From contig RDEW01000017.1 of assembly GCA_011109175.1 (NCBI GenBank), forward strand, positions 813,855 to 877,854: a stretch of 64,000 bases of DNA. Reading direction: 5' to 3'. The DNA is from Dicyema japonicum. Its lineage: Eukaryota > Dicyemida > Rhombozoa > Dicyemidae. The notes beneath the pieces were generated by a model that worked only from the letters and a program-made list of their open reading frames with translations, was not told the DNA's origin and searched no databases. The translations under genes and the position numbers were made by a program. Below are positions 33,019 through 57,615 of the stretch, piece after piece; position 1 is the stretch's first letter; each line of letters starts with the position of its first letter.

Positions 33019-33996
33019 TCATATAATAGGCTTAATACAGGATACAGGCACTAATCCAGTACAGGTACCCCGTCTCACTTTTATCATACCATTAACTTCC
33101 ACTAATGACTCTGCCCTTAATACTTCATCCGCTTGAAGACTCAACTCATTCATGTTTTTTGCCTCATATTCAAATATTACTTGCACCCACGTGGATTCAT
33201 TTTTTGATGTTTTCTTTCCACCACTAACAGTCAGCACAATCACAACCTCATCAATCCAGGAACCAACGCTCCCAGCAGTTTGGCAGCCTCTGTGTGGTAT
33301 TTAAACTGGGCCTGAATCAACTGTAAAAAAGTATCCTCCATACATTCCTGCATTTATTATAACGACAACCCCCTTAGCGGCGAACTCACTCATTTTATAA
33401 ACGGTCTCCTCCATGGCGGTCTCGAAGGCCACTTTGAGGTCCTTTAGTTCAGTGGAAGACTAGGATCACAGAAAGGATCACTGTGTTGGCGTTTCTGGCC
33501 GCGTCGTAGGAAAGACGAAGGTACTCTAGCTCCTTCTGGCATTCTAATGGTCACTGACTTTCTTAACCTCGATCTCTTCGAAATTCTTGATAAACTTTTC
33601 TAGTGAGGCGTAAAATTCTCCGTGGATTTTCTGCACCATTTTCTGCTCAATTTCTGCCAATCCCAATTCCGTGGCACCGATTTCACTGCAAACTGAAGAA
33701 ATCGAGGTAAAAACACGTGATGTCTGCACAAAACTGGCACCCAAAGACCTGGGATTTATCCTCTTCTCGGTCTGAAGATTGGGGAGACTTAAAGGTCGTA
33801 AATCACCCATAATTGAGCGAACAGCCTTCTTTATGTTCTGACATTTGTTGAATAGGTCTTCGAATTGAGCGTCGTATTGAGTCCTTTCGGCAGTCCCCAG
33901 TATTTCCCCAGTCTTTTGACGAACCTGACTTAGAGGAACTGATGTGCTTTTAACCTTCTTCTTAGCTACATCCATAAAACTCTTAAATTTGTCCAT
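33019..33996 (-). CDS. Endophilin (BAR plus divergent SH3)
   Basis: Endophilins bend membranes through a BAR domain and recruit dynamin/synaptojanin through SH3 in endocytosis and autophagy. ATG at 33,996; 295 residues in five exons with introns at 33,558-33,536 (23 nt), 33,481-33,460 (22), 33,369-33,348 (22) and 33,246-33,224 (23); all joins keep frame. N-terminal amphipathic segment MDKFKSFMDVAKKKV, then TAERTQYDAQFEDLFNK and LRPLSLPN as in endophilins, a BAR helix with LEYLRLSYDAARN, and LIQAQFKYHTEAAKLL. SH3 at the end has FEYEAKNMNELSL and GLVPVSCIKPI, but the Trp and Tyr of the ligand groove are replaced. A-type versus B-type cannot be decided; the N-terminus leans to A or B equally. 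Stop at 33,019. Confidence 0.88.
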
Positions 33997-34075
33997 TACG
34001 GCTAATTAGAGTACAATATTAATATATTTGAATTATTATTAATTTTTTGTTAAATACATTAATAATTTAAATCAC

Positions 34076-34691
34076 ACAGGGTTTTCATATTTATTTAATA
34101 ACTTTGTCATAAAATTTAATAACTTTGTCAAATATTTTTGGTATTATTAAGTTCCTACAAAAAACAAATTTCAGCGCAAAAAAAATTAAATGAATAGTTA
34201 CAAAAATATTACTGTATCCGAGGATAACCGAAAACTTATAATAATTAGATATGAAGCAGGATTGGCTTATTCAAAATAAGTGAAGACATCTGCATTAACT
34301 ACCAGACAGTTGTTTCCATCGTCAAAAATAAGAGAAGTTTCGCCTCAACAAGACATAATTGTGGACGAAAAAACTTAATTCATCGAACATTTTATTTTTG
34401 ACTAAAAGAATTGAAGAAGATGCTTCATTTACGGTGAAGACTTTACAAAATTCTTTATTTGATGTGCAAAGAAAAAATGTCTCTCTATCGACATTGTGTG
34501 CAATGATTTGTATAGCCACATGCGGAGCTATTTAGTTAAAGCATTGGCTAATGAGGAATATTAATTTACAGTTGTTTTTTTAAATTAATTATAACATTGG
34601 TTTTTTTTCTAATTTGACCTTTGACAAAAGTTATAAAACATTTTGCCAAAGTTATTTAATTTTCTGACAAAGTTATTAAATAAAACCCTGT
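34076..34691. mobile_element. Short DNA transposon with inverted ends, decayed Tc1/mariner-like
   Basis: Ends ACAGGGTTTT and AAAACCCTGT are exact inverse repeats, and the next 60 bp also match inversely with AT-rich differences (TTTAATAACTTTGTCA units on both sides). The interior (34,215-34,345, plus) reads VSEDNRKLIIIRYEAGLAYSK and then, in another frame, NYQTVVSIVKNKR, like the N-terminal helix-turn-helix of Tc1-type transposases; the catalytic part is gone. No clear TA duplication flanks it. A non-autonomous, internally deleted element is the best reading. Confidence 0.55.
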
Positions 34692-34909
34692 CGTTTAATT
34701 TATGTGAAATTTTTTGTGGTTCATCTTTTGTAGTGGTGCTGGAAAAGAATTATTATATCCTCTACCTCACCGATTACCACGACGGGGTGGTTTCATTATA
34801 TCCCCTGTATTACCTTCTTGCTGTCTGGTGAACTATTTTACAACTGTATGTCAACGAGATCTGTAGCAAACTTATGGAACTATGTGTTTTGAGGCCTCAA
34901 AGTCACATT

Positions 34910-35210
34910 GCGCTAATTCAGGAGTAAAATATTTGCAGATTAGTCTCCACTTCATGTTTCCCAGGATTCTCTGTTATACGGAAGGATAGGGTAAGTACAT
35001 CCGATGGAGGCTTTTATATTAGCGGAATTGTATTCACGGATGTCTGTCAAACTGTGTCTTCACTCTGTGAGGGGGATATCTTGGAACACATCTCTATTGG
35101 CAAATTGTTTTATACATTCCACCATCTGGATAATGTCCGATCTCTTATTTCATAGATATTGAGACTGTGGGCTGAAAGAGATTATTATTTGTGACGATTT
35201 GACATCCATG
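34910..35210 (+). mobile_element. 2A-type LINE, endonuclease fragment (decayed)
   Basis: Reads FPGFSVIRKDRVSTSDGG and FTDVCQTVSSLCEGD, aligned with the FPGFTVIRRDR ... GGGLL and FEDITNS segments of the element at 19 kb; stops interrupt the frame. Confidence 0.65.
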
Positions 35211-35499
35211 TATCTTATAGTCTCAGCCACCTTACAGCTTAAGGGAGTATATATTGCCGAGTAGACCATATGACTATAATCCTACTAAGCCATCAAGCTT
35301 AATCCTTAATCCTAAGTCATCAGAGCAATGGCATTATTAATTTTTATTCTGAATTTTTATTTGAAACCAGAAACTTAGACATTTGTAAAAATCATGTTTT
35401 AATTGCCAAAACACACTGCATTGTAGTGATGCCCATACCTAGAGGCCGCGAAACCATTTTTGTACGCGAAAATCGCTGAGTGGTCGTAATATCATTTCC

Positions 35500-37500
35500 G
35501 ATTTAGTTGACTTCTTTAGATTGTTACTCCTTCTTGTCCAAGCTATTAGGCTCTAGTATGGAAGGGTGTTAGGCAGACTCCAGTCCGCGATTCACAACAT
35601 CATTCAAGTTATTGTGACTGGGAATCTCCTAGGTCCCATCCCAAATCTAGCATTTCCTCCGAGAGAAAGGGTAGTTACCTCGTCAGGGCGCTTGCCATCT
35701 ATACGATCCAGGCCCACAGGTTCCAAAATGACTGGAAACTAGCCGCCCTAAGAGAGATGAACAACCCTTAAATGGCGTCTTGTCTCGGGAACCGGCCACT
35801 GCTGAGACGTCAAGAGAGCGTGTAAAGTCTTTTGCAATCCACAACATATCAACAACGACGTGGATGAGGCTGGCACAAGTCGATCCCGAGACGGAAGGAT
35901 ATCCGATTTCGGAGGGCATCCTGTTCCAGACGGGAACCAATTGACGATGATGGAACGCGTTCACCAGCCACTGTTGTAAGGGAAAGAGGCTGACAGAATG
36001 CAAGTTTGACGGTCCAAGTCACTGTTTCCAATGGGTCAAATGAGAACTCTTGAACGTAATGTTGGTCCAGTTCCTCAATCTGTGTGTTCTTCAAAAGCCA
36101 TCGACCAACTCTTCAATCCATCAGCAATTTTGTCGCCCGGAGCGGATTTGCATAAATCTAAAAGAATAGTTCGGATAAGAACTGTGTTGTTTGATAAGAG
36201 GACAGGAAGGATGGCAAGGAAACGTCCACATGAGAAGTTAGGTCGATACCCCCAAATCTGACGGGTAAGAATGCTTGCATCAATCCAATGTTATCGAACT
36301 TTCTACTCACAAATTCTTTAGTAGACTTGAAAGTTGAAATTCTCCACATCGGCAATAGCAGCGTTGGGGAGAAAAAACGTGATCCAGCTTCGTGATTTAG
36401 AGAATTCATTTTTCGAGAGTCCCAGATTACAAATTTTGGGTTTACATGCGTTAATCTCGAGTCCATAACTGCTAAGAATGGGAAGAAATATTCGAGACTT
36501 TTGATTCACCGATCGTAGCATCGTTCAAATACCAACAAATTAAAGCCGTCACAAACGAACGGGCAGCCTCATCGACTGCTGAGGCAAAAAGAAGTGGGCC
36601 AAGAGGATCACCTTATTAGATCTGATGATTTAGTGAGTCCACTACCAATAACGAGATGAGTTGGAGTACCGTTCGTAATGTGAATAATTCTTGGGGCTCT
36701 CCTCAAAATGGATTCAAGAAGATGGTCCCCTCTCACTTCTCTCACCGGATTGAAGGCGGATTAGGCTTCCAACGGCAATAGGCATGATTCCGCACCAGTG
36801 CTTCGAGGTAGACAATAAGAAAATAGATTTCACGGGTGATGAGGGGATGTTCATGATACAAACAGGTTTACAAGTTTGGTTAAAAGAATATCGTTGATTC
36901 CTTCCTCTATTAGAGGTCATCCGAGTATTTCGAACTGGTTATTAGGGGTATCTGCGACCATAGGAATTAGTCTATGGAAGAATGATATGATTGACTTCCA
37001 TTCAGGAAACTAGAATCAGAAATTACTAATCTAGCGTTTTGCAGAGTTGAACGTTAGGCCTTTCGAATTAAGTTACCCTTCTTAGACTATCCAGTACATC
37101 ATTGGGTTATCCCCCATAGTCCAGTCGTCTAAAAACCACGTGTTTAATGAAGTAGAAGCACATTTGTTACACGGCCGATTCCAAGGCTGAACAGAATAGA
37201 CTCCAAGTGGTCCCCTTGCTGGATTTCTGTAAAGTAGGGAATGATGAATTTACGATGTGCCAGGTTTGACTTTTTCCCGTAGGAGGAATATACATGGTCG
37301 TATATTGAAGGGGGTGCATGAACCAATCTCCAGAATTACATCACAGCGTATGTCGTTAAAGGAATTTTCGATGTCAATCACGAGGATAATATACTGGATA
37401 TTCTTGTAGTGTTGTTCAAAAGTCCACGCAGGATGAATTGGCGCTTACAACTTCCAGGAGTGCCGACACCAACCTAGGCTGGTCGCAGATGATCGACAAA
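35500..37500 (-). mobile_element. RLE-type LINE, reverse transcriptase portion (decayed)
   Basis: Minus-strand pieces in order include IPYFTEIQQGDHLESILFSLGI (37,144-37,260; QGD box), WYLN-like catalytic remnant near 36,580, LMQAFLPVRFGGIDLTSHVDVSLPSFL (36,200-36,290) matching the LPVACGGLGLSLPSDV thumb of the element at 30.97 kb, and an RSLDVSAV/RLG zinc region near 35,700-35,900. Many frame breaks and a rearranged order near 36,700 show an old copy. Confidence 0.65.
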
Positions 37501-38265
37501 CCTGGGGAGGACTGTATTGCCCGCCAATTTTGATGATGTGGTATCATTGGGAGTATTGATTGACAGTTTTCTTTTGTTGACTTTTTTGCTTTTTCGCAGG
37601 TCATTTTATCTTTTGCAGGTTTTAACATTTTCCTTGTACTTTTCAACAAAAAGATTTGATTTCTTATTCAATTTTTTTTACAAATTATACAAAGTTGAGG
37701 AAGACAAATAAGCTTGGGTCCTTACTTCGAGACAGTGAGGACATCGTTTTATATAGTGTTTGCTCCACTGGTCCTTTGAGTCTCGAGAAGGCGGGCCAGG
37801 ACACGAGAGAAGGTTATCTGCGAACATGAAGGGTAAAGTGACGATTTTGTCTGGTCTTATAATGATTTTCTATCGAATACCACGTGGCGCCAGCGTTAGT
37901 GTGGTGCTATGTGGCTACTTGAGTTGAAGATTTTTTGTTTGCTTCTACTCTTCTTCCTCTTCCCTTTGGCTCCAGGGAGCTTGAATTCTTCATTCAGGTT
38001 GGTATCCAAGAAAATAGACTTGCTCACGGGGGAAGACGGATATTCCAGGTAAACTGTTAAATATTCCTGCCACGCGGAGGAAATCGTTATTCAGGTATGA
38101 AATATTGATGAATTCCGATTTTTATGTTGACCTCAATGCCTAGATCAGTGATTCTTAACCTTTTTTAATCACACTCGCGAATTTTTTTTGCCCTATATTT
38201 CACAAGTCAAAAAGTTATTACCACATAATTTTTTTTAACAAAAAATTTTTTTAACAATTAAACAA
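37501..38265. repeat. Dispersed repeat, possible LINE 5' region
   Basis: Around 37,885-37,990 a segment with CCACGTGGCGCC, TGGTGCTATGTGG and CTTCTTCCTCTTCCCTTTGGC recurs reversed at 39,160-39,240 and at 53,945-54,025. The reading VGIQENRLA near 38,010 recurs in the minus frame near 8,700. It may be the 5' untranslated and N-terminal region of a LINE family whose other parts are fragmented here. No gene seen. Confidence 0.4.
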
Positions 38266-38269
38266 ATTT

Positions 38270-38405
38270 CAATTGAGGAAGCCTGCTGCGTGGATTGCGA
38301 ACGAGTTCCCTCGGAGTATGGCTATTCCAATCTTTTGTCTTAGCCATAACCCTTCTTGTTGATCCCTTTTCTTTCTGGCAAGCAATCCTCTGAGTTCTCG
38401 CAAAA
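38270..38405 (-). mobile_element. RLE-type LINE, 3' end fragment
   Basis: Nearly identical to 9,150-9,290: GAGGAAGCC(T/G)GCTGC, then GCGAACGAGTTC and CTTTCTGGCAAGCA. It ends abruptly at a RLE-family coding sequence with a premature cut. Confidence 0.8.
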
Positions 38406-38639
38406 CGTACATAATTATTTTAGAAATATTTTTTTATTTAAAAATCATAGTTTTAATGAGATCTCTGTGGTTGATGAGTATTCACATGATTCTCTAAATT
38501 TGCCTTTCTTTTCTTAAGTGCAATCCTTATATCTCCTATTGTACATTTATTTTGTTTTGTTTTTTTCCCGATGACATTGTTGAGAGTGTTAAATCCTCTT
38601 TCCATGCAATATGAATTCGGAAAACATAGAATGATTTTA

Positions 38640-38960
38640 GTTCTCAGCTAACTAAGTGATCCAAGACCGACAAGGAAGACGACGAGTCCGGCGGGGTCGA
38701 GAATCCTGAACATCTCTTCTCATCGGACATGGCATCGGCTCAAAATTTCTGTATGATTGTGGACATTACGATAATGTATGGAATAGAGGGCAGCTCGGTA
38801 AACTAGCCTCTTTTAAGAGTTTCCTTTGTAATTCGATTAAGAAATTTTTAATGGACTGGATTTTGTGTTCTGGTCCAATTAACCTTATTGCAGTCTCCTC
38901 GATTATGGATAGTTTCAATGAGAAGGATCGTAAAATCTACATTTCCCACGAAGAAATAAG
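38640..38960 (-). mobile_element. 2A-type LINE 3' fragment
   Basis: Reverse of 21,540-21,770: CTAACTAAGTGATCCAAGACCGACAAGG, then GGACATGGC and a stretch reading in minus orientation through the C-terminal IEETAIRLIGPDHN-like end. Includes part of the last coding segment. Confidence 0.75.
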
Positions 38961-39019
38961 TTAAAGTAAACAATTAATTAAGTGTATCCAGTTTCCACTT
39001 CTACAGATTCCATCCGGAA

Positions 39020-39300
39020 TCAACATAAAAGGTAAAAGACGTCCATGGTTGCAGTTGTGAAAACCCTCCAGTGGAGTGGGGGAGAGCAAATGATCCTTTT
39101 TTCGTGCCGGCCTGGCACTGGGCGCCACCTAGACAGGTGGATCACATGACACCACTCTAATAGGAAGAAAGAGGAGGAACAGACGAACAAAACTGAAACT
39201 TCAACCAATTAGTCACGAAGCACCACATGGCGCCACGCGGGTATTTCTATTTTGAAATAAATATAAATGTTATATTTTTAATATAATATAAATGTTATTG
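39020..39300. repeat. Dispersed repeat copy (see 37.9 kb)
   Basis: Contains GCACCACATGGCGCCACGCGG and GAAGAAAGAGGAGGAACAG, reversed relative to the copy near 37.9 kb. No coding function proposed. Confidence 0.4.
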
Positions 39301-39950
39301 TTATCTATTCGGAAAACATAGAATGATTGCAAGAAGAAAATTGTTATCTACGGTTACTATGCAAAAACTTATGAAATGTTGGATAAGAAAATGCTCGGTC
39401 GGGCCATCACTCCGACTCAGGTTGTATGAGGCGTTCGTGAGGCCCATACTAACATACAACTCTGGGACGTGGGGAATTTCGAAAACGGACGAACAAAAAC
39501 CTTGACTCCTTTCACAGAAGGCAACTTCGGTCTCTCTTGGGACTAAAGTGGCCAATACGTGTAGGGAGTGAAAATTTATATAGAAGATGCGGTTCCGGAC
39601 CTCTGAGCACCATGATCATGAAGGCTCGCTGGAGATTGTTTGGCCATATTCTCAGATTGGAACAAGACACGCCAGCAAACGTCGTCATGGAAGAATACTT
39701 CGATACGTCAGGGGAGAAGTTCAGAGGTCGTCAAGAATAACTCTTCCGGAAGTCCTTAATGGTGACCTGAGATCAGTAACCAGACAACTAAAGGACGGTG
39801 AAGACCTTAGTAGTCTGCGGCACTTGGCATCGGACAGGAGGGGATGGGAAAGGCTAATTAAGAGGATTGTTCAGACGCGGCACGAATAGAATTATAGTTT
39901 ATATGATTCTATGTAGTTGCTTATAATAATAATAATAATAATAATAAATG
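39301..39950 (+). mobile_element. RTE-like LINE, C-terminal part with (TAA)n tail
   Basis: Reads ARRKLLSTVTMQKL, LRLYEAFVRPILTYNSGTWG, then, across two frame breaks, the RWRLFGHILRL box and LPEVLNGDLRSVTRQLKDGEDLSSLR. Followed by (TAA)n at 39,926-39,949. Same family as 3.85-5.46 kb and 62.3-63.0 kb. Confidence 0.8.
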
Positions 39951-39999
39951 TTATCTTAACCCCACTTTATTTAACCAACAATAAAGTTAAATTTAGTAA

Positions 40000-41720
40000 T
40001 CACAACCTTCCTCGCCATCCTGTTCGCCAGCCTCTCAGGCAGGTTCGATTCTGGTTTCTGAAACAATTCCGAGAGCGCCTTGTCCAATTGAACCTTTTGT
40101 TCATATGGATCTCCGGGCTTTGCCTTCTATACTCCAGTGTCAGGCTCTCTAAGGTCCGTTTTAATACAGTAAACTGTAGATAGGCCTGGAGCTTCCTATC
40201 TACCCCTAACTGTTTCAGATAACCCTTGTGGTACTTTGTTGCAATTCCTTCCCACGTCATTACTATTAGAACAACGAGGAGCTTGCAACCAAGCATCTGC
40301 CCCATCTCGTTTGCAAGCAAGTCATACTTTTTTTTCTCCATCTCCACAGTCTGCAAACGGTCTTGAGACGTAATGCCTAACCTCTATGATAAGGACTTGG
40401 CCAGACTCCTTCTTGTACCACAATGTCCGGTTTATTGTGCTAGACTATCACCGAGGTACGGATAACACTGTCTACCTTTATCTGAACCCTGGTGTTCTCT
40501 ACTACAGATTGCACCTTATGAGTCCGCAACTTTCTGGTGTGGCGAATACCATACTTATTGCATAGTAAAAGATGAAGATTCCTTACTACCTCGTTGTGTT
40601 TTCACATATAGTCGTGGCAGAGCATGGATCCGTACCGAGTGCCTAAATGATCAACCGACATGCTCCTTGACTTACAATGGGGACATTTATTTGTTGATCG
40701 ACCCCAAAAAATATTGCGGTCTTGCATATACGTGTACAGTACCTCCGATCGAGGTGAGTTGTCACCGTATTTTAGCCATATTGTCGACGACTCAAGGTCG
40801 ACATGTGGGTTGTCCAATGCTCTGAAGAGGACCTTATGAAGGCTTTTTAAGTTGATCTTTTCCATCAAATTATTATATTGTAATTCGATCAACGCCTTCA
40901 CATTTACTAGCCCACCATCATCAACACCATACTTAGCAGACAAAAAAGGTCTGATAGTGCCTAGGTGGGTTGCCCGTGTTTTCTCGGTCGTTATTATGGC
41001 GTGCTTCCTAGCAGACACACTTGACCCAGCTATCAGGGTGTCGTGCATTCGCATTAGGATACGCTCACTTAGTTGGACTACTCCACACAGTCCACGGCCG
41101 AATTTATCACGGGGTAAATATAGTCTCTCCTTATTGGCTGCCAGCACATGGACATGGTTCTCTCTGAGTACTCCACGGATCATAACATCCATCTCATCAT
41201 ACTCTTTGGGCTCAAACTCCACAACACCTATGTAGTAGTTTAGCAGCGAGACAGCATACTCATTTAATGCTAGGAACAAATTCCTTGCATTTAGAGACGT
41301 CTTACATAATAACGCTGCTCTTTTACAAATGCCTTCAGTAATTTGTCGCTTTGTCTCAGGCATTATAAGGGACTTTGGAGTTCGGTAACACCCAGATACT
41401 TAAATTTTTCGTGTTCTTCTAAGAACCTTACTAACTCGCTACATACCTGCGTGTTAGTCGCAGACTTGGAATAATTCAAATCTAGTTCGATACTCTCAAA
41501 GAATTCCCTGGCACAGACCCCCATGGAGTAGAGCTCTTCAGCTGTTCGAGCATACATCTTCAGGTCATCGATAAAAAGAAGGTGATTTGTACTGAAACAA
41601 CCCCCTCATAATGAACTGGTATTTGCTCAAACCAGTCATTGAGGCGGCGACTCAATGACTTTTAACAGAGAACAAAGAGCAGCGGAGACATGCTATCCCT
41701 CTGAAGGATACCCCTCTTGT
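40000..41720 (-). mobile_element. Second RLE-bearing LINE family, RT C-terminus plus endonuclease (decayed)
   Basis: Minus strand, in order: IDDLKMYARTAEELYSMG (about 41,520-41,570; RT catalytic DD), a thumb with FKYLGV (41,400), then 253 residues with NEYAVSLLNYYIGVVEF, ANKERLYLPRDKFGRGLCGV, NKCPHCKSRSMSVDHLGTRYG (Cys/His zinc ligands, 40,640-40,690), then KYDLLANEMGQMLGCKLLVVLIVMTWEGI (40,230-40,330). The order RT, CCHH zinc ligands, nuclease is that of RLE LINEs of R2/R4/NeSL type, but it is unlike the family at 29-32 kb. The cysteine-histidine finger is intact; the nuclease is frame-broken. Confidence 0.7.
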
Positions 41721-41829
41721 GTTTTACCTCGCTTATCCGGTGCCTATTATTTAATTTAATTCATTAACCCCGAATTTATTATTTATTTATTTAATAACCC
41801 CAAAAAAAACACCAAGAAAGAAGGAGTAA

Positions 41830-43500
41830 ACCAACTAATTAAGTGATCCCGGCACGCCTCAACAGGATCGAGAGGTTTTTCCTATGTTCTTCCAGAGTAC
41901 CCACGGCTTTCCTGAATAGACGACGATCATCTTTCATTAGAGTTTGAAGAGGGGTGCGTTTTTTCCCCAAATTTCGTGTATTTGAGGTTTCTAGCCTTGA
42001 ATGGATGAAACGACTTGTTTCCGATGAAGCCGGAGCCGTTATTTTCGATTGCGGCGTGGTTAAGCATTGGGGGAAAAAATCGCGGGTAAATTTGTTAGAC
42101 GTGCAAGTTTGCCTGTTAGGGAGTTGATCTTGTATGAATTGGATATTGAAGCTCCATAGGCCCATGAGACACAAGCATACTCTACCGTCGGTTTTAGAAG
42201 TTGATTGAACAAGACGACAGCACATTCCTTGACGGCCAGGACTTTAAAAACGGTTTGATTATATTTAGTTTCCTGAGACCCTTTGTCATAACGTTCTTCA
42301 TATTTTGAGAAAATGTCATCAAAGGGTCAAATGTCACTCCCAGGATAGTTGGACGAATCTGTAATGGTAAGGAGTCTCTATAAATGTTTAAATCCAGTGT
42401 ATGTTTTTCTTTTCTGTCCATGGTGAAGATTGTATGCGTTGATATATCCCTGGATATGAGAGACGATTCAACTTCAACCAGGCTCCTAGGTCATCAATAT
42501 GTGACTGAAGCTCTGATTTTGCTGTACCCACGTATTTATTCCTGCTAGCGATGATTAGGTCGTCAGCATAAGTGAGAAGCATTGAATCTGGTCCTACAGG
42601 GCAGGGTAAATCGTTGAGGAATAAGTTGAATAACGCCCGAGAAAGGGGCGATCCTTGAGGGACACCATTTGGTAGTAGACGGGCCTATACAGACACGTCC
42701 TCTTCTTCCGGAGAGAAAATTGGCTATCCATCTTTTTAAAACCGGCTGAATGGTGGTGTCAAAATTTTTTTCGTGAGTATGTTCTCGGGACAGAATCGAA
42801 CGCTTTCTGGATGTCCAGGGAGACCACGATTGTCCGTAGGTTCGTTGAACCCTTCTGATATAAATTGAGACAGTGAAGTCAAATGTGTCGTAGTTGAACG
42901 CTCACATTTGAAACCATGTTGAAAGTGGCAGTCAAGCAAATGGGATTTAATTTTCCAGAGTACGAGTTTCCCCATTAGGCGCGATAATGCGCACGTTAAT
43001 GAATTTGGACGGTAGAAAGAAGGTATGGTCTTCGGTTTTCCTAGTTCTTAGGATGGGTATTATAAGTGAATTCTTCCATTTTTATGGGATGACGTTCTTG
43101 TTAGAAGACAAATTAAAAATTGACGTAATCGAATTGATTGCAACATTACCAAGATGTTTTAGCAAAATTCCCGGAATGCCGTCAGAACCACACGTATAAA
43201 ATCTCTTCATCGATCTTATAGCCTGTGTAACCTCGGCCACGAAGTTGGTTTAGGCATTAAATTCCGAAGGTGACAAGAATGGGATTTCGAAAAGTCCTTG
43301 TGACTTATGGATGCGTAATGTTTCATTAGGTTGTTAGCTTGCACAGTATTTGGAGCAGAAAAAGATTCTGATTCATCTGATTCGACGAATAGTTTTCCAT
43401 AAAAGACTCGTGAATTTCATATGTCCAATATATGATAATAGGCGGTTCCACGCCCTATCTTTCTTTTATCTGATGAGCTTTGTAATTCTCTGATTTAAGT
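41830..43500 (-). mobile_element. 2A-type LINE, reverse transcriptase (decayed)
   Basis: From the 3' end CTAATTAAGTGATCCCGG it reads back through LIHSRLETSNTR, IRPTILGVTFDPLMTFSQN (42,300), LLTYADDLIIASRN (42,540-42,580), GVPQGS-like remnant (42,650), FNEPTDNRG and HGFKCERSTTTHLTSLSQF (42,870-42,930) and the upstream KNSLI-PI region (43,050). Same subfamily as the copy at 48-50 kb. Frame broken several times; endonuclease absent. Confidence 0.8.
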
Positions 43501-43599: not shown

Positions 43600-43930
43600 A
43601 AGAGCGAAAGGATCAAAGCTCAGTAATCTATCCAATAACCTTCGCAGTTCGATGTGAGTGCATCGTCGATGAGTGAAGATAGACATGAAGCGGCAGAGAT
43701 CCGAACTGCCTTCGGAATCCTCAGTGGTATTTTCCTTGACTTTCGCAAGCTGGATATGTTTAAGAGGACAGAATTGGAGTCAGAGATTGACTGCTCGAGA
43801 ACTGGTCCGATTTGTTGGTAAGTTCTCTTAGGGGGTCCAGTCTCAGGTATCCGTAATGGTATAGGATAACTCAACATAAGAATCCCTCGTTTGTTCTGTG
43901 CCTCATCACCTACTAGCTATCCTTTTGTCC
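43600..43930 (-). mobile_element. RLE-type LINE, N-terminal linker fragment
   Basis: Minus frame includes RKIPLRIPKAVRISAASCLSS, which aligns with KIIPVRIPKASRISIASALSS of the element at 29.3 kb. Neither finger nor RT is present. Confidence 0.7.
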
Positions 43931-43959
43931 CATTCCAACCATTACGCCTTGATATCGAG

Positions 43960-44710
43960 GACGTCCAACAATAGACGGGAAGACATCGCGAGGAGCATCA
44001 TCTTCAGCAAACCCTTCCTTGCAATCTACAACCAAAGCAGCAACATCTTCATCAACAATTTTGAATAATTCCAACTGAAGACAACCAATACAACGTGTAA
44101 CGCCACATTAGGAGATAGTGAAGATATCATTCGGAGAAAAGCCATGGCAAACGCTGCATTACACAGGCTGAAAAACCTATGGCTAAAACAAAAAGAGAAT
44201 AACATAAAACAAAGGATAATGTTATACGAACACCTTGATCAAACCAATCCTTTCTATACAACTCTGGGACCTGAGGCACTTCAAAAAAGGAATTGGAGAG
44301 GCTAGACTCGTTTTACAGGAATCATCTAAGAAACATAACTGGAATTTCCTGGCCATCTACGTTCTCGCGGAAAGGACTGTACAATAAATGTGACTGTACA
44401 CTATTAAGTCTTGAGATCATTAGCTCTCGTTGGAGACTTTTTGGACACGTCCTGAGGTTGGACCCGAATCCCCCCGAATATCGCAATGGAAGATTACCTA
44501 ACGCTTTCATGAAGACCGAGAACAACCCTCCCGGTCGTTTTACAAAACGATCTGAAAGCAGTGAAGAAAACATTGGCATCTAGTGACGATCTGGACACAC
44601 TGAGGACCTAGCTAAGAACAGAAGAGCTTGGAGCAAGCTAACTAATTCTCTATATTTTTTGCTGCACATGTGAGGGCTGTAAATACTATGGCTCTCGTGA
44701 AAGTGATAAT
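43960..44710 (+). mobile_element. RTE-like LINE C-terminal part with tail
   Basis: Reads across breaks: SEDIIRRKAMANAALHRLKNLW (44,110-44,170), LYEHLDQTNPFYTTLGP, FYRNHLRNITGISWPSTFSRKGLYNKCDC (44,300-44,395), SSRWRLFGHVLRLDPNPP. It ends CATGTGAGGGCTGTAAATACTATGGCTC, CGTGAAAGTGATAAT, the tail shared with the SINE at 27.8-28.15 kb. Confidence 0.8.
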
Positions 44711-47180: not shown

Positions 47181-47359
47181 TTTAGTGCTATTTCTATTTT
47201 TATACTTTTAGATTTCTTCGAGGGTTTTTAAATCCTCTACCTCGATGTGACTTTTTGTAGATTCTATATATTTTAAGAGTTTATGTTTTAATGTTCTTAC
47301 TCTGTCCAAAGATTTAGAGTTTTCAATCCTTAAGCGTAGGTCTTTTTGTGTAATCCTGA

Positions 47360-47775: not shown

Positions 47776-47940
47776 TTCCACACGTGTGGAAATATAACTT
47801 TTTATGTTTATACTTAATGTTACAATTAATAATAAATTATTTATTCCTACAAGTTTTTCCAATTTTTTTCTGCCACATAAAACATAATTATCAGACAAAG
47901 GAAACAAATCATGCACAGCTGAAAATTTAAGCGTAGCGGC

Positions 47941-50160
47941 ATGCGGTTCACCTGTTGTTGTGGTGGCGCCTGGTGCAAGTTATGCACTAAAGAAAAGCGT
48001 TTGAACTTCTCCATCCCTCTACGTCCTTTGGAAGGGTGGCCTACCAACTTCAATTTGCTACTCCAGTCTGGCGACATCAAACCTATCCCGGGTCCTGATT
48101 CCACGCTGGTCATTCTCCAACTTTATGTCAATGAAATCCGTAATAAAGTGCTGGAGCCACGTTCCCTCTTGGCCCGTTTGAAAATGGACATTGCCATTAT
48201 TCAGGAGTCTAAACTCTCCACGTCAGCCGCCACCCCACGCTTCCCTGGATACAATATACTCCGAAAGGATCGGACAAGAAGTCTCGGTGGAGGATTATTG
48301 ACGTTTGTTAGGGAGGGTCTTTTGTTCACCGATGTCACCCCGTTTATATTTTCTCTTGGCAAAGGAGACCCTATTCTGGTGCAAATCTCTATCGAAGTTC
48401 CTTTCTCACCCTCAAGTCGTTTTACACTATGTAATATTTATATTCCACTTCAGAGTTCGTCGACTTCCCTTATTCCAACGTATGTTCCAAACATATCGAA
48501 ACTTTTTGAACTGAAAGATCTGGCATTAAGCGGCGACCTAAATGCCAAACATCCATTCTGGCTCCGGACACAATCAGCCGATAGTCTCGGAGAGTACATC
48601 CTTTCCTTACTTAATGATTTGACTATCCTCAATGATTCGGACGCTTACACAAGAACCCCGGCTTGCAGAAGGGACAGTCAACATCCTCGGACCTGTCTTT
48701 CTGCTCTCCTTCTATGGCTGGATGTATTACATGGAATGTTCGTTATGGTTTCTCAAGCGACCATAACCCCATTGTGTTGAGACTTAGAAGGCCTATTTGT
48801 TCACTGTGTTGTTCTACAAAGTTCAAAAATTATTTGAAAGCTGACTGGCAAGGTTTCAGGCGTATGTGGACAATAGTCTGTTTGACTTACTATGGTTAGT
48901 TGTACAGTAGATAAGACGGCCAAGATTTGTCTGTTATCATTTTGAAGGCTGATAAACTATTTATACCTGTCGCCTCTTACAAGAAGTTCAATCCAAGATT
49001 ATCATCTCAAATTGTGTCACTCATCAAGAAATGAATGCGCTGAAGAGAAAAGAACGCAGTCCAATAACTCCTTTTATTCTATACGTTCACTGAATACCAA
49101 ATTATCTGAGCTTATCCGAACTAATAACAGACTCAAATGGAGCCGTCTAGTTGGACGACTATGTCACAAAAACTCTTGCGCCACATTTTGGAAAACGCTA
49201 AGAAGGATCAATAGCCTCATCAATAGGAGGACTGCGGTACTGGGCCGTACTCGCAACGCTTCGGAACCCAAACTGCAAACAAGATTATGAAGTACTACGT
49301 ATCGATCAGCCATAAAGATTTTTCTCGTTCTACACTTGTTGAAACAAGAACCGTATTCCACTTTCTTCACCTTCCCCCATGATGTTGACAAGGCTATTAA
49401 ATTGCTACGTCCCACTCGTTTGTGGTCCCGACGGTGTTTGCACTATTATCTCAAACACCTTGGACCTCAGGCACGGGCCATACTATCAAGACTCTACAAC
49501 GACTTTATCAACTACCATACGCTACCTAATATATGGAAGAACTCCCTGATTTCGCCAATTTTAAAACCTGGAAAACCAAAAGACGTTCCCTCTTCTTACG
49601 TCTCAATAACTTGTATTTTATCAAAAGTGCTGGAAAATTTGTATTAATGCGTATTTCTCCTGTTCTACATCTACCAGAATTTCAATATGGTTTCAGGGTA
49701 GACCGTTATCAACGACTCATTTGGTTCTATCTCCCAGTTTATTACTGACGGCTTCAACATGAGAACACACTTACGGACGGCCTTAGTATTATCGATATAC
49801 AGAAGGCCTTTGATTCTGTTCTGAGGAAACTCCTAACGCAAAAGATTTTTAATTCTAACTTACATCCGAATATCAATCTATGTGGAAATTTCTTAGTCAG
49901 GGTTTCGTACATTTTTGCAAGGAACTGGGAAACTCATTCGAAGGAAAATGTGGCCCATGCAGAAGAATTTCGGTCGGTTATAAAAAAAGTGCACGCCAAT
50001 TGAATTCCTATGCAGAAGGAAGAGAAGGCGCTTCCGAAATGCGGTAGGGTTATAGACGAAGAGAGTTCGGATGTTGTTGGAGGCTGGAATCACCGAATTA
50101 GCTAGTTTTGACCTATCTTTCTTGGTGCTTTTGTAGTTAAATTTATTAAAAATAAATAAT
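47941..50160 (+). mobile_element. APE-type LINE, second copy with degenerate 2A-like motif
   Basis: N-terminal Cys-rich lead, then LLLQSGDIKPIPGP (48,055-48,096), at the position of the 2A motif of the first copy, but with Glu and Asn positions changed. The endonuclease follows (VNEIRNKVLEPRS, AIIQESKLS, RKDRTRSLGGGLLTF, GDLNAKHPFW near 48,535), then frame-broken RT pieces (HLGPQARAILSRLYND near 49,460; PEFQYGFR; DIQKAFDSVLRKLL near 49,800) and, after an internal deletion, the 3' end near 50,150. Confidence 0.82.
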
Positions 50161-50755
50161 CAAGACAGATTTTTCTTATGACAAAAGGAGAAATCAAATA
50201 ATCTTAGTCCAAATGGGAATAACATCTTCCCAAAATCTTCAGCAAGAAGAGTGAAAGAAACTGAAAAAATAAGACATTCTTTTCAAAAAGTTGAGATGAT
50301 ACTTGTATTACTAATTACCTGGAGAGGTTTTACAAATTCATATTAGTAAGTCCTTTTTATGGTGATTCCTGTAAGTCATTTTTATGGGAGATTTCTCACA
50401 TTGGAAGAATGTATTTTTAGTTATTATTTGGTTTTGTCAAAAAATCTATATCAATCTCGGTTAATATTTCCAAATCCATTTCTCTATTATTAGTATCATT
50501 TATAGATCATCATACCTTCATTATTTTATTTCAGCCTCAAAAAATACTAATCATCCATCTTCTGATGGAATTTAAAGCCATACGTACTTATATCAGGCAC
50601 TCCTTCAATTTCCTAACTATAAAAATTGAGAGCGTAGATTTTTCACTTTATAAAAATTAAGTGTATAAATGCAACCTCATTACTAAAAAACACAAAACTA
50701 AAAAGCAAAATAATTTTCATTAGTAACATTAGAATAGTCCGTATATAAATAAATC

Positions 50756-53453
50756 TCATAAAGGCAAAATATTTCTGTACTTAGAAAACCTCCCTCGAAA
50801 CTGATTCATCTCTCCATTCTGCTTCATTCGCATTTCCTCAATCTCCTTTGAATGCCTTTCCACCATACATTGATACTCCCTCAAAACAATCTGTTCCACT
50901 TCACTCCCAGATCTATCAGTCAACTATGATTATTAACAAGAGTACTATTGGACGATCAAACGTTGAAAGCTGAGAACTGGGACACACATGCACATCATTG
51001 TCTGACGCTGGTACTTCGGCATTCGAGGGATATTCGGTGGTTACGGAAGAAACATCAAACCGACCCAACTTCACCGTCTCCTAGAAAATCACTCCAAAAA
51101 CAACTGGAACTTCCGTGGTGACAGAACTCTCTGCTTCACATTTGACCTCCGCCGTCTTATGGGTATTTCCACTTAGGTCACGTGTTTTGAACGTCTTATT
51201 AAGCTCTTCCTCCAACTTAGCCAACGAAGTTTGGTTCTCCTCTCGTTTTGAGCAACAATCGGGCTTTTCCATACACGAGGATAAGGAGTCGAACGAGTTT
51301 TCGTGGTTAATAACGGACTCCGGCTTCGGAATTACCAGTGTCGCGGAGGAATCGTTCATGGGAATAGACATACTTTGAGGATCTTCCTCCTTAACCTCTG
51401 AATCAACAGGTTCAGAAATCAAGTCGTCCTAACCCTCACAACAACAGTCCACCTGGCACTCCGATGCTTTCTCAACGAGTTCTTCCAACAATTTCAACAG
51501 CCGTTCAGCCTCATAGTCTGCAAGGTACTTTTCGTCCACCTAAAATTCATATTAGGAAAAAATGACCAAATTCGCAATTATGTCTTGTGTGGACTCTTTT
51601 GAAGAGTCAAAGATGAAAGTGACCGCATCCCCTTTTAAATTTGTCAATTTGACTTTGATGTCGTTGTTCTTTTTCCCAACCAGCTCCATGGTGATCCGTC
51701 TCTTTTCACCATCTTCATTATCCCCCTCCAGAGTCCGTTCAGTCCCCTCCCTGAAATAAACCACAGCCAAACTCAGCTACCAAGGTGAGATCTTCTACTT
51801 TCGGAGGATCCAAACCCATCGATTCGGGGATTGACTTGGCCTCAGAAACCACCGATGTTCAGTCTCCCCAGCCTCAATCTTTCTGCATTCCTCCTTGTAC
51901 CTCTCAATGCTAATATGTATGTGCTTTGCTATGGCAGTGCTGTTTTCACTACTAATGAACTTATTCGAGACCTTCAATTAACAACCAACTAACCATCTCC
52001 TCAGCCACTGACAGAGCTGAATCTTCTCGGAGATTGTAGTTCATATAAATCCCAACTTTATCCTTTATCAGGAGGTCACATGACTTGCTCAAATCGGCCG
52101 CTGAGATCCTCAGAGTTATCCGTCACCTTTCCCTTCCATTCCACAGGCAATCACGTCCACATTTAGGGTACTCATTTCCTCTGAGAACACATTCAGTCTC
52201 AATAACTCATCCGCCGTGTACCTATCAAGGAATTACAATATCACAAAAACCTATTCTCCTTCTTATAAGCAATACAACTCCCCAAGATGCTCTTTAGCCC
52301 ATCATCTGATACCTTGTTGAGACTATCCGGGGGACAACCCTCACAGTCAGCCCAGTCTTACCCCCGACACTTTCAAATAGATTTGAGCCGCCGAGGTACA
52401 TTCGTTGTAGGGATACTCAGAGGTTACCATCTCCAGAATGCACATCCCGAACGCATACATGTCCACCGCCTCGTCGTAGCACTCTGTATACATCTCAGGA
52501 GCCATAAACTCAGGAGTCCCTGCCATAATTCTATGGTATTACCAATCACTGATTTGGCGAAAGATCCCTCACGAAACGTGGCTAAACCGAGATCGCCGAT
52601 CTTCACCGATCCCGTGGGACCTGTTATAAAAATATTGTCGCATTTGAGATCCCTGTGAATAATAGGTTTGCTTTGAGAGTGCAGGAAGCTCAATCCTTTC
52701 AGGATCTGCAGACACCAACGGTTGAGTACGCGTGGTTTCACTTTTTTGAACCGCTTTATGTATCTAGAGCCTTGACCCTTCAAGAATACGTTTTAAGGGT
52801 TCCTGAAGTCATCAGCTCTGTCACTAAGATCAGTTCGATCCCTTTAGGAGTTTTCGTCTCCCAGAAATCGTAGAATCTAATACTTATGGTGATTTCATGG
52901 AAACCTGACAATGTTTGGATTCTGCAATCCCTTAAGGAGTTCGATCTCTTCCTTGAACCTCTTCCGGTCGATCTTTCCCAACTTTGTACTCTGACAATTT
53001 TTCAAGTCAAATTACCTTCAGTTCACACCAGGCCACCGCTGCCCCTGTCTCCGTGTCTAATCCACGGTAGACAGTCTTGAAGGAACCAGTTCCCAGTTCA
53101 GCTCCGAACTTCACAAAGGACCCAGTCGGAGACATTGCAACGATCCTGTCCTCGGGCTTCTCTTCCTCTTCCTGGTCCCCGGCAGGAATCAATCCCGCCA
53201 CAGAAATCGCCGTGGTAGTCGATTCCGGGTTTTTTTCAACCTCCGGAGTTGGAGCGACCTCCTCGTTGCTGAGACAGGGTTTCAGGTTGGTAGGGCAACT
53301 TGGATTACTCACGTGGTGAACGTCGCTAGAACAACTGACGCTTTTTAAACGGTTCGAAGAAAAAAATTTGGCGTATTTATCGCCGAATGAGCTAGCCAGC
53401 TCATTAAAGTCAAGAAATCGGCCTTTTTTGTTGATTTTGGATTTGTTGGACAT
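50756..53453 (-). CDS. WNK: WNK (with-no-lysine) protein kinase, multi-exon
   Basis: WNKs control cation-chloride cotransport and cell volume via OSR1/SPAK. Start: ATG at 53,453. Kinase domain from about residue 107: glycine loop GTGSFKTVY holding the catalytic Lys, Cys at the usual Lys site (VAWCEL), [19 protein letters not shown], then [18 protein letters not shown]. Two PF2-like (OSR1_C) segments follow ([19 protein letters not shown], and [16 protein letters not shown]), an acidic Ser-rich tail, a GRFDVSS box of RFxV type, and a C-terminal coiled segment ending at 50,756. Introns fixed by frame: 53015-52991, 52904-52877, 52789-52764, 52542-52520, 52361-52340, 52250-52222, 52126-52101, 51993-51972, 51566-51540, 51433-51398, 51104-51081, 50945-50924 (22-36 nt). 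The join around 51,750-51,830 is unresolved. Confidence 0.93.
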
Positions 53454-54365
53454 TGGATCTTGCTCCAGCCCAATATGTCTAAAAAATATTATGATCTTGT
53501 TAGAAAGTGAAAGTTTATGAGGGAAACAGTTAAATAAAAATACCCACAATAATGAAGATTATCACAAATAACTTTTGGGAAATTTAAAATTTTAATTATT
53601 TTTAAAAATTAATTTATAAATTAATTACTTTAAGTTCCTTCATAATTTTTAATAAATGAAAATATTTTATAAAGGAAAAAAAAGAGAATAAATGGTCATG
53701 TATTGGCTGCCATTTAATAAATTGTTTTCAAAAATATATAATTAAATTCAATTTATTGAACCAGAAGAACATCGTCATAGTCGGAATGAAAAAAACTCAA
53801 GTGATATTGGCCTCCCTCAGCAGTCTATGCATAATCGGACTTAAAGGAGCTCCGTCCAGGGGGAACTCCTCTGGATGGCTGTTAACTAATGCTTTTGTTT
53901 GGATATAATTTAGGATTATATCTAGAGCAACCAGAGATGGTAACCACATGACGCACGCTAACAATTCAAGCTCCCTGAATCAAAGGGAAGAGGAGGAACA
54001 TGAGAAACAAACAAAAAATCTTTAAGGAGTGTAACTCCATTATTTCCTGGATACATCGTAATCAGAAAAGGTGGGATACTTGACCTACTCTGATGTGAGC
54101 AGACAAGTGGACAATATAATTTACATGAAAGGACCGCTGAACAAATCTCGATTGATGTCGTTAATGATTTAGGTCACCTCATTTTGATTGACTTATACAT
54201 TTCCCGTCGGGATCCTGCCCTATAAATTATGTTCCAAAACTCGATATAAGTCTACTAAGACTTTCATAGTGACAATAATCTAATTATACTAAAGTAGAGC
54301 CGATTCAAAACCCCACATAGGAACAAAGCAACCTTCAGAACTACATAATCTTCTCCTTGATCAAT
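53454..54365. other. Upstream of WNK; repeat debris
   Basis: AT-rich until about 53,760, then a dispersed repeat copy at 53,945-54,025 like that at 37.9 kb, and unassigned sequence. No gene seen. The WNK promoter should lie in 53,460-53,700 but I cannot identify elements. Confidence 0.4.
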
Positions 54366-54368
54366 ACA

Positions 54369-54605
54369 CTATTCATGGAAAAGACGATCGCATCTGCTAC
54401 TTCGTTTAATTTTATTAATTATTTGTATAAAAATATTCATAAATTCATGCAGTTCAATAGATAAATTTTTCACTACCAAATTCTGCCTGTGCAAAATGCA
54501 ATGAACAAATATCGCATTTGGGCATTTTATTTTAAAAATACCATAAAGTGCACGCTTTGTTATATAAATTATTTTAAATAAATTTATGTATAAATATGTC
54601 ATCAT
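54369..54605 (-). mobile_element. hAT-like transposase remnant (ZBED5/FAM200-like)
   Basis: Minus frame with CPNAIFVHCILHRQNLVVKNLS then ELHEFMNIFIQIINKIKRSSRCDRLF follows the conserved order of hAT transposases related to ZBED5/FAM200 (HCIIHRE...LVAKKLSPELHEVLN). Only about 78 residues remain; stops on both sides. Confidence 0.65.
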
Positions 54606-55039
54606 TAAAAAATTCGTAATTAAAAAACTCGTTGAGAGACACTGATCTAAACCGTGTAATCTTCCCAGCAGAAAGCTATTTGTCTTCCGAGCAGTGTATA
54701 GATGTTATAACACTACATTCGACTCCGAACCTCGTTCCCATATAAAGAAGAGGAACTCTCTGAAGATAATTAACCTCTACCTTATTTGACTTGAGGAATA
54801 AAAATGTTTTATTCAAAAAATCACAACCCTCATAAACAAAAAAGAAAAGTCTTGGAATCGAATATTATTATCTATTAAACAAATGAAATCGCGATACTAC
54901 TTTGGAATATAACCTGATGAAGTATTACCCCCTACAAGACACAAGGACTTTTCGAGGACTCTCTACTGTTGCTTACGTAATTTGTATTTAAACCATCTTC
55001 ATGGATCGAACTTTTTACTCACGTTGAGGCTACATAGGC

Positions 55040-56110
55040 GTTAAGATTCATGAAAAGTCATATACGTCTCGTCTATATGGCATTCCTGAAATTCTGCTAA
55101 AGCATCTTGAAGAGATTGCAGTCAGATCGATTAGTTCAATTTTAATTTGTCTTCAATACGAACGCTATTTCTAATAAATGGAAGAACTACATATCATACC
55201 TGTCTTAAAACCAGGAAAACCTAACGCCCACCTTCATCTTACTGCCCGATATCCCTGACCTGTACGTCATCGGGTCTCATGGAAAAACGTGCTTTGGAAA
55301 ATTAAACCCCATTTTCCCTTTTGTCACTACCAACATGGATTCAGATTGAAACGTTCTACAACAACACACTTAACTTCCTTGACATAATTTATCCCGAAAA
55401 ACTTCAACGAACCTAGACGGCATCTACGAACAGTATTAGTCTCGTTAGGCTTCCAAAGGGCATTTAATTCAGTCCCGATAATCCTACAAACGAAAATTGT
55501 CTTCAACATCTCCATTCAACCGACTTTAAAACGACGGATAGTCAATTTTCTTACAAAAAAGAGATTATGTGTATAAGCCATTCAAGATCGAGATCCCGCC
55601 CCCTCCTGAATGTTGTCCTTCAGGGATCGTTCTTTCTATAGCGAATCCGATCGCTTCTATTAATCAGCGATAGAAGCCGTAGGTACACGTAAACAAGATG
55701 ACACTAAATTCTAATCAATTACGTATCGATTTAAAATTTTATTATAAAATTACGTAATAATGTTTAGCCATACTAATTTTAGCTCTAAAATTTAATCATT
55801 TTTAAAAATTTTTAACATAAATATTTAAAATTACAATCTGTCAAGCTAAACTATTTCAAATCAACCCTCTACGATGTGGGCACCACCCATATCTACCAAC
55901 ATATGATATACTCTGCCCCTTTTGCAACCTCAACGTGCTGAAAACAAATCACCTATTTCAATGTCATGAATTGGCACAACGTTTCTCCACAATGCCGGAA
56001 CTGACCGATGGGAGCGACCAACATCTGCTGCGTCCTAATTAATAGCTGTTGGCCTCCTACAAGTTAGTGAGGCTGGGGTTACTTATCTAACTAACTAAAT
56101 CAACCCTTAC
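55040..56110 (+). mobile_element. 2A-type LINE, reverse transcriptase and tail (decayed)
   Basis: Reads IPEILLKHLEEIAV, HIIPVLKPGKPNAHL, QHGFRLKRSTTTHLTSLT (55,330-55,385), FQRAFNSVPI, then, after an AT-rich insertion or deletion, NPLRCGHHPYLPTYDILCPFCNLNVLKTNHLFQCHE (55,870-55,975), a Cys-Cys-His-Cys finger common at the end of LINE polymerases. Ends near 56,125 with GTTAGTAATAATAAAAG. Confidence 0.7.
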
Positions 56111-56309
56111 CCAGGTAATGTTAGTAATAATAAAAGTGATCCAATTTAATAAAAAACACATCTTAAAAAATTTCAAAGGTCACAATTTTTAGCTCGACTA
56201 ATATGAACTGTGTTATATTTATTATTTTCTTCGTCCTAGGTCAACAATAGTTATCAGTTCTCCTTTCTTACTGACAACTTGGTACTTTTTTGTAGAAACT
56301 TCGTCATAT

Positions 56310-56870
56310 AATGGGTAGGCCTATTACCCTCATTGGCTTCCCAATCATGACGTAATAAAATTTCGGAAAATTTAGAAAATGAGTCTATAAGAACCATAAT
56401 CTGATATATTGCAAACTAACCCAAGAAAAGTTTTTATTTTGAGAAGAATATCCACGTAAATCAACAAGATCTACAATGTATTGATCTCTTGGAGCATAAG
56501 CAATGATTGGCGTAATTTCAGGTTTATTTGCAAGAATTCGTTTTGACTAAAATTACTATATTTAATACCTGACAATATACACATTTAGAGACCACAGTAC
56601 TAACTTTTCTACGTGTAGCACCATAAAAAGTAAGTGATAATGAACTAAATAATTTATCTCGCCCAAAGTGATCAAGATTATGTTGAGCCTAATATAAATT
56701 GGATAATATAAAACTTCAATGTATTTTTTTATGTTCTGTTTCTTCAAGATAAAAGTATTCCAGTTCTATACCATTTTTTATAATGTAGGGTTTCACATAT
56801 TTGAAAATGAATTGTTCGGCACATCTTCTGATTTTTGCCCGTTCTTTCCTGTCAGGGTAATTATCGATTG
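56310..56870 (-). mobile_element. Integrase-type (rve-like) transposase remnant
   Basis: Minus strand contains ITPIIAYAPRDQYIVDLVDLRGYSS (about 56,450-56,530) and, with a break, LIDSFSKF (56,370-56,395), the pattern of DDE integrase cores related to Ginger/KRBA2-like proteins (first Asp in VDLVD, second near DSFSK). No zinc-binding or C-terminal part is seen. Remnant. Confidence 0.55.
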
Positions 56871-57106
56871 TTTTGTAACAATATTATATCAAAACAAAAT
56901 ATGAACAATAAATTCTAAAAAAAGAAATTAAAAATTATATTATAGAATGTTAGAGATAATCCCGATAATTATGATTGATATTCTATCATGACTGTCAGTT
57001 ATACAAATCAATGATTATATATTAGATTTGTAATCTGTGATCGGTAGAAATAATGGTTTGGTTTTATAGTCATTAGTGTAGGGTGACCTTGCTCAGTCAG
57101 AGATTG

Positions 57107-57615
57107 ATGGTGAAGCAGTCTGTTACTTTAGATATTAAAGAGGTCTTTGATCTTTTCGACTTTTGGGATGGACGAGACGGAGAGGTCGACGCCTTCAAGG
57201 TTGGGGACGTTTTGAGATCTCTGGGGATCAACCCAATGAACGACACGGTTTTGAAACTTGGAGGGACCTCTAAAATGGGTTTTTAGTGATCATTATCCAC
57301 AGGAGAGAAGGCATACAAATTCGAAGACTTCTTGCCGATGTACAAAGCGGCTTGCAAGGAAAAAGATACGGGGACATTCGCTGACTTTATTGAAGGATTC
57401 AAAACCTTCGATAGGGAAGGACAAGGCTATATTTCAGCTGCAGAACTGAGACACGTACTCATAAATTTGGGGGAAAAACTAAGGGATGAGGACGTTGACA
57501 ACATTCTTAAGTGTACTGACGTGGCTATTGATTTGGACGGAAACATAAAATATGAAGGTAAGGAAGTTTGGCATTTGTAGAATTTATCCGCAAAGTAATG
57601 GCAGGGCCACACTAA
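57107..57615 (+). CDS. Essential myosin light chain (muscle-type, lophotrochozoan-like)
   Basis: Essential light chains clamp the myosin lever arm; in molluscan regulation they also contribute Ca binding. Start at ATG 57,107 (another lies at 57,083) gives a start [14 protein letters not shown] comparable to scallop light chain. Exons 57,107-57,278, 57,303-57,557 and 57,581-57,615 are joined by introns of 24 nt (57,279-57,302) and 23 nt (57,558-57,580). Product 153 residues. First EF-hand-like region [21 protein letters not shown] (scallop: [10 protein letters not shown]), then [30 protein letters not shown] and [14 protein letters not shown], ending [14 protein letters not shown], all in the order expected. 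Translation is uninterrupted. Neighbouring DNA gives no functional hint. Confidence 0.95.

Follow-up and report, generated by a model that had tools for sequence, protein, structure and literature searches.

A candidate branch-point signal at a near-fixed position in the 20–30-nt introns of a dicyemid genome

How are introns of little more than 20 nt recognized and removed? The question is raised by a 64,000-nucleotide stretch of the Dicyema japonicum genome (G000:C68:813855-877854; hereafter, the window), taken from an assembly of 64.67 Mb in 191 contigs (published genome size, 65–67.5 Mb). A sequence-only reading of the window had proposed ultra-short spliceosomal introns in all of its readable host genes. 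The micro-intron trait of dicyemids is already known; what our analysis of the sequence appears to add is a positional branch signal and parts of a minor spliceosome. We interpret these as U2-type spliceosomal introns that function in a dicyemid-like animal and have probably shrunk until their length is roughly two minimal distances added together, and we put the probability of this reading at roughly 0.8.

Introns were collected in two ways. Our own protein-to-DNA aligner, checked on a toy case, allowed only GT-AG introns of at least 15 nt and had almost no length preference. It placed 100 introns in 14 intron-bearing loci (PRPF8, EIF4A3, two PABPC1-like copies, U2AF2, DDX46, DDX23, SMARCA4, DDX47, SF1, WNK, RIOK1, a myosin light chain, and SF3A1) and none in SNRNP35. 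Ninety-three of the 100 are 20–30 nt long, with a median of 23 nt, which agrees with the dicyemid-like length range that had been suggested for the window and is already published. We know of no other animal with an intron median near 23 nt. The remaining seven measure 40–429 nt, and at least one of them (429 nt, called at the end of the WNK kinase domain) looks like a gap in the alignment, the protein being divergent there. Borders were tested for 65 of the 93 tiny introns, and in 56 of these the next-best placement scores lower by 5 units or more. The second set came from a gene finder with an intron length prior that was flat over 15–100 nt and had a small tail up to 400 nt, applied to 57 loci and the window. 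Here 172 of 332 introns fall at 20–30 nt, compared with 5 of 68 in reversed sequence; when overlapping loci are counted once, the figure is 154 of 304 distinct introns. Because none of 238 gene-finder introns reached a margin of 4, this set was kept as support only. Judged from sequence, introns of the proposed lengths are thus confirmed to be present far beyond chance, aside from the exceptions named here and below.

The PRPF8 gene provides the strongest single case. It contains 39 introns, 37 of which are 20–26 nt long, and its aligned codons include no stops, with 1909 of 2286 residues (84 per cent) identical to the human reference as we entered it. With GT-AG borders, the aligner score for PRPF8, the one gene in which the comparison was made, is 9946, against 6295–9363 for eight other boundary pairs. 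Across all the homology-placed tiny introns, in-frame stops occur in 19 of 23 introns with a length divisible by three (3n) and in 42 of 70 others, a contrast that is not significant (P = 0.075); in a smaller set the counts are 12 of 13 and 32 of 52. In Paramecium, 3n introns are under selection for in-frame stops. We dropped the corresponding proposal for the introns studied here, given the lack of significance.

How such introns are recognized was addressed by aligning them at their 3′ ends, a search for a shared branch point that the sequence-only reading had itself put forward. The null model shuffled the interior of each intron in 2000 rounds. Outside PRPF8 there are 56 tiny introns placed by homology. 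Of these, 38 carry a T-N-A with its A at −7, −8, or −9, whereas the shuffles gave 16.0 ± 3.2 and none of the 2000 reached 38. At the control position of −12 to −14, T-N-A was found in 15 of 56 introns (15.7 expected). The stricter YTNAY is present in 15 of 56 (5.6 expected; 0 of 2000 shuffles). The same T-N-A signal was recovered in 133 gene-finder introns of 21–28 nt (0 of 1000 shuffles), and an expectation-maximization fit to 161 introns (28 homology-placed and 133 from the gene finder) converged on TNAY, with the A at −7 in 38 per cent and at −8 in 28 per cent. The likelihood gain of this fit was 85.5, compared with a maximum of 69.3 among 60 shuffled sets given equal rounds. The candidate A therefore sits 7–9 nt from the intron end, consistent with the claim that little room is left between branch point and acceptor.

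Measured from the other end, the A falls at nucleotides 15–17 in 33 of the 43 introns that have a T-N-A at −6 to −10. Its peak moves little with intron length (nt 16 in introns of 20–22 nt, nt 16–17 in those of 23 nt and again in those of 24–25 nt, and nt 18 in those of 26–30 nt). The simplest reading of these sequences would be two lower limits, one of about 15 nt between the 5′ site and the branch point and one of 6–8 nt between the branch point and the intron end, the sum of which would explain the sharp lower edge of the length distribution at 22 nt. The intron body is 42 per cent T. Positions +3 to +6 of the 5′ site carry 1.52 bits in 65 homology-placed introns, PRPF8 included, and about 0.9 bits in the 161 introns, which were partly picked with a learned splice-site model; the value given for dicyemids in a part of an earlier study is 0.5 bits (PMC2483917).

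The machinery that would act on these introns appears ordinary. For U2 small nuclear RNA (snRNA), 22 of 25 matches lie above the curated score, a count that is a lower bound since 46 of 4186 candidates were scored, and GUGUAGUAUCUG is intact in the one that was aligned. Six of these at least 22 matches sit on contig C115. U1 snRNA gave 11 matches, the best of which (69.0 bits) is slightly below the curated 69.5 and has ACUUACCUGG intact. The intact U1 and U2 pairing regions, together with the preference for GT-AG in PRPF8, fit the spliceosomal character first ascribed to the introns. SF1 has its helix-hairpin and KH domains, U2AF2 aligns across residues 19–470 of 471, and matches were found for U2AF1, SF3B6, PHF5A, SLU7, PRPF18 (PRP18), and the N-terminal part of SMU1. 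Within PRPF8 (with region limits set by us), the thumb/linker, alpha-finger, and RNase H-like parts are 92–93 per cent identical to the human protein, the N-terminal, RT, and endonuclease-like parts 84–88 per cent, and Jab1/MPN 65 per cent. So far as we looked, it is the substrate that seems unusual and the machinery that seems ordinary. The proposal that the SF3A/B complex must work in an unusually compact geometry was accordingly overstated: the spacing resembles that of Trichomonas and Giardia, and every factor for which a search gave a result is present. An idea from yeast work links a short branch-to-acceptor distance to dispensability of SLU7 and PRP18. Loss of these two factors on account of that distance is refuted here, as both were found in the genome.

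We propose that an apparently weak 5′ site would be paired by U1, and that a degenerate T-N-A(-Y) branch site, with its A near intron nucleotide 16, would be read by SF1 and then by U2. Because only 6–8 nt remain to the intron end, U2AF would be placed on a U-rich stretch that for the most part precedes or overlaps the branch point. Branching would then produce a loop of about 16 nt and a tail of 6–8 nt, and the exons would be joined by the conserved PRPF8 core with SLU7 and PRP18. That the T-N-A adenosine is the branch point, that events follow this order, and that U2AF binds at this place is what we infer from the positions and factors described above. A stronger version holds that erosion has brought the intron to one mechanical minimum, with a branch loop of about 16 nt and a 6–8-nt tail. 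Two lower limits would set this minimum, both belonging to a metazoan spliceosome that is otherwise complete, has kept SLU7 and PRP18, and has a U12 spliceosome beside it; we consider the chances of this version to be even. If it is true, dicyemids would be an animal system in which to ask what is the smallest lariat that a normal spliceosome accepts.

A U12 spliceosome enters the argument because parts of one were found. A U12 snRNA scores 85.4 bits (cut-off 53) at G000:C68:163471-163599 on the minus strand (locus L079), and the match for U11/U12-35K (locus L012) has an E-value of 3.1e-49, against 2.4e-21 for the next match, a U1A/U1-70K chain. A minor spliceosome thus appears to have been kept in so reduced an animal genome, which is a second and separate lead. 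The presence of these two components would also suit an explanation in which the tiny introns are themselves U12-type and spliced by the minor spliceosome, with the pattern ATATCCTT...CCTTAAC and a donor of ATATCC/GTATCC type. We consider this extremely improbable. None of the 100 homology-placed introns begins with GTATCC (the aligner was limited to GT-AG, so AT-AC introns would be missed), and a CCTTAAC-like branch site was generally not seen in them by eye. A loose search of 356,796 bases returned 3 U12-like matches, as opposed to none in three scrambled-word controls, and none of the 3 lies at a proven coding junction.

The positional signal itself has to be weighed against several contrary observations. 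The protein references used by the aligner were mostly entered by hand; border testing covered 65 of the 93 tiny introns, and 6 of those 65 have a margin of 0 and thus ambiguous borders; and T-N-A at −6 to −10 is absent from 13 of the 56 introns outside PRPF8. In the 37 tiny introns of PRPF8 there is no excess at all (44 T-N-A, against 40.4 in their own shuffles). The PRPF8 introns are 87 per cent A+T, compared with about 64 per cent in the other tiny introns, and the signal is therefore either not universal or masked by composition. PRPF8 also favours an account in which genuine introns lack a fixed branch point and the excess of T-N-A reflects intron choice (through TAA or TGA stops) or composition, and the absence of a branch-point signature from 41 dicyemid introns, as given in the portion of the Irimia and Roy study used here (PMC2483917), points in the same direction. 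Yet the excess is confined to −7 to −9, with none at −12 to −14, a confinement that a choice of stop codons would not produce. Moreover, it is also seen in introns that were placed via protein homology, and the stop-free word YTCAY clusters too, with 5 of 11 occurrences at −7 in 146 distinct gene-finder introns of 21–28 nt. We therefore regard the lack of a fixed branch point as unlikely. That the interruptions are not introns but frameshifts in pseudogenes, or assembly errors, is hardly credible. Some gene copies in this genome are decayed, as the actin fragment of the window illustrates, but PRPF8 combines 39 breaks with no stop in 2286 aligned codons, 84 per cent identity, and a best score for GT-AG among nine boundary pairs, and the identical length peak recurs in unrelated core genes. 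Shrunken, functional U2-type introns remain our preferred interpretation.

In the window, ultra-short introns had been claimed for six named genes. They were found in five of them, and the claim was not confirmed for NCKAP1, for which introns of 21–29 nt had been listed: its alignment is weak (63 of 198 residues identical over part of the protein), its model has no Pfam match, and its five called introns were excluded from all final counts for the weakness of the alignment. The interval 33019–57615, to which the introns had been assigned, contains only endophilin, WNK, and the light chain, with RIOK1 and SF3A1 lying outside it. Removal of exactly 23, 22, 22, and 23 nt from the endophilin-like gene, as predicted, yields a protein of 295 aa with BAR (1e-21) and SH3 (2.9e-8) domains. 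The essential light chain of myosin matches the scallop essential light chain at 5.8e-57, and its coding sequence continues over introns of 22, 24, and 23 nt, the first of which adds to the two that had been noticed. Among the best 120 of its 521 database matches, identities are 63–74 per cent; most of these matches are without names, and where a name tells, they are molluscan, annelid, brachiopod, and flatworm, which marks the animal as a spiralian. Together with genome size and intron length this points to a dicyemid, and another spiralian whose introns shrank independently is very unlikely, although no named dicyemid sequence is among those 120 matches and no dicyemid record is among the best 120 of 7185 actin matches. 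The short introns of WNK hold across its kinase domain (25, 28, 26, 23, 22, and 29 nt). In RIOK1 (18.9–17.2 kb), the introns are 22, 23, 20, 23, and 23 nt long, the 20-nt one having a margin of 0. Those of SF3A1 (5.9–6.87 kb) are 27, 26, 28, 54, 25, and 23 nt long, so that a single one exceeds the 23–28 nt of the rest, and they are followed by a gap of Ns. The genes and introns, in window coordinates, are as follows.

33019..33996, minus strand: endophilin-like gene (BAR + SH3), complete, 295 aa, 4 introns removed
33536..33558, minus strand: endophilin intron 1, 23 nt
33460..33481, minus strand: endophilin intron 2, 22 nt
33348..33369, minus strand: endophilin intron 3, 22 nt
33224..33246, minus strand: endophilin intron 4, 23 nt
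57088..57612, plus strand: myosin essential light chain, coding part covered by the alignment (start codon uncertain)
57110..57131, plus strand: light chain intron, 22 nt, additional to those of the sequence-only reading
57279..57302, plus strand: light chain intron, 24 nt
57558..57580, plus strand: light chain intron, 23 nt
50756..53453, minus strand: WNK kinase gene model (kinase domain checked; C-terminal half from the gene finder only)
52991..53015, minus strand: WNK intron, 25 nt
52877..52904, minus strand: WNK intron, 28 nt
52764..52789, minus strand: WNK intron, 26 nt
52520..52542, minus strand: WNK intron, 23 nt
52340..52361, minus strand: WNK intron, 22 nt
52222..52250, minus strand: WNK intron, 29 nt
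17586..18542, minus strand: RIOK1 kinase domain, aligned coding part
18338..18359, minus strand: RIOK1 intron, 22 nt
18175..18197, minus strand: RIOK1 intron, 23 nt
18004..18023, minus strand: RIOK1 intron, 20 nt, ambiguous borders
17928..17950, minus strand: RIOK1 intron, 23 nt
17801..17823, minus strand: RIOK1 intron, 23 nt
5934..6857, plus strand: SF3A1, first part (remainder lost to the N gap)
5980..6006, plus strand: SF3A1 intron, 27 nt
6046..6071, plus strand: SF3A1 intron, 26 nt
6198..6225, plus strand: SF3A1 intron, 28 nt
6368..6421, plus strand: SF3A1 intron, 54 nt
6582..6606, plus strand: SF3A1 intron, 25 nt
6761..6783, plus strand: SF3A1 intron, 23 nt

The N gap (window 6866–7773, about 900 bases) takes out the second part of SF3A1. 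Two further copies of the endophilin-like gene, L002 on contig C13 and L003 + L004 on contig C53, are 98 per cent and about 80 per cent alike in the first exon. They were uninformative as a test of divergence, the 98 per cent copy being too close and the C53 copy having small exon indels. The actin fragment (window 43871–44056, minus strand) covers the first ~60 codons and contains three stops. An actin search of the genome yielded 68 matches, many of them interrupted by stops that may mark introns or decay; actin introns were left out of the counts because the reading frame of the copy chosen is apparently broken close to the 3′ end. The window also holds a MULE-type transposase with a FLYWCH zinc finger (25514–26957, minus strand) and a reverse-transcriptase-like element in which Pfam recognizes RVT_1 (29023–31953, plus strand). 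Further reverse-transcriptase-like elements were noted by eye at 18992–21404 (plus strand), 58038–58940 (minus), 60097–61855 (minus), and 3865–5431 (minus); several of the reverse-transcriptase-like elements of the window are apparently broken. A short repeated peptide (KMASIQNGLHSK) occurs in a reading frame at 27500–27865 (minus strand).

Dicyemid micro-introns have been in print since 2007, and the parts of the papers drawn on here give 16 introns with a mean of 26.2 nt (Aruga 2007, PMC2222250), a median of 27 nt (Zverkov 2019, PMC6543705, citing Ogino 2010), and, for D. japonicum, a genome of 67.5 Mb with a mean intron of 38.2 nt (Lu 2019, PMC6736024). Genes of D. japonicum have 6.2 introns each on average. 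The orthonectid median is 57 nt. Our data share with these reports the dense short introns (mean 26.2 or median 27 nt there, median 23 nt here) and differ from what those parts contain in the positional branch signal, the 39 introns of PRPF8, and an inventory of splicing factors that includes minor-spliceosome parts. Irimia and Roy described, in the portion used here, 41 introns of Dicyema acuticephalum with the weakest 5′ sites and no branch-point signature (PMC2483917); in our data a signature is seen outside PRPF8, whereas PRPF8 alone has none. In the open-licence literature, that study was the only one found on a branch point or minor spliceosome of Dicyema, one unrelated paper aside. The main text of PMC10639083, so far as it was covered, names Intoshia and contains neither ‘dicyem’ nor ‘rhombozoa’, and a term search of PMC12249979 turned up neither introns nor splicing.

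How dicyemid micro-introns are recognized becomes a directly testable question, given a weak, near-fixed signal and ordinary factors. Comparable systems, again as described in parts of the cited papers, lie among protists. The introns of Paramecium (about 25 nt; PMC2483917, PMC12862383) are alike in length class and high density, but no branch signature is reported for them there, and the ciliates studied lack U11/U12 while keeping SMU1 and RBM17 (PMC12862383), in contrast to the U12 and 35K found here. For the tiny introns of Nyctotherus, no branch point was found in the portion concerned (PMC2633312). Trichomonas and Giardia, with 4 nt between branch motif and AG (PMC2483917), likewise have the motif a few nucleotides from the AG; theirs is a strict WCTAAC-type motif in few introns, and ours a degenerate one in many. 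Also comparable are the 15–16-nt introns of Stentor coeruleus (PMC9505925), which share a weak branch consensus and a branch A at a near-fixed place. There the A is nucleotide 10 of 15, the tail is 5 nt, and SLU7 and PRP18 were not found, whereas here the candidate A is about nucleotide 16 of 22–25, the tail is 6–8 nt, and both factors are present, which suggests that their loss is unnecessary for a tail of 6–8 nt.

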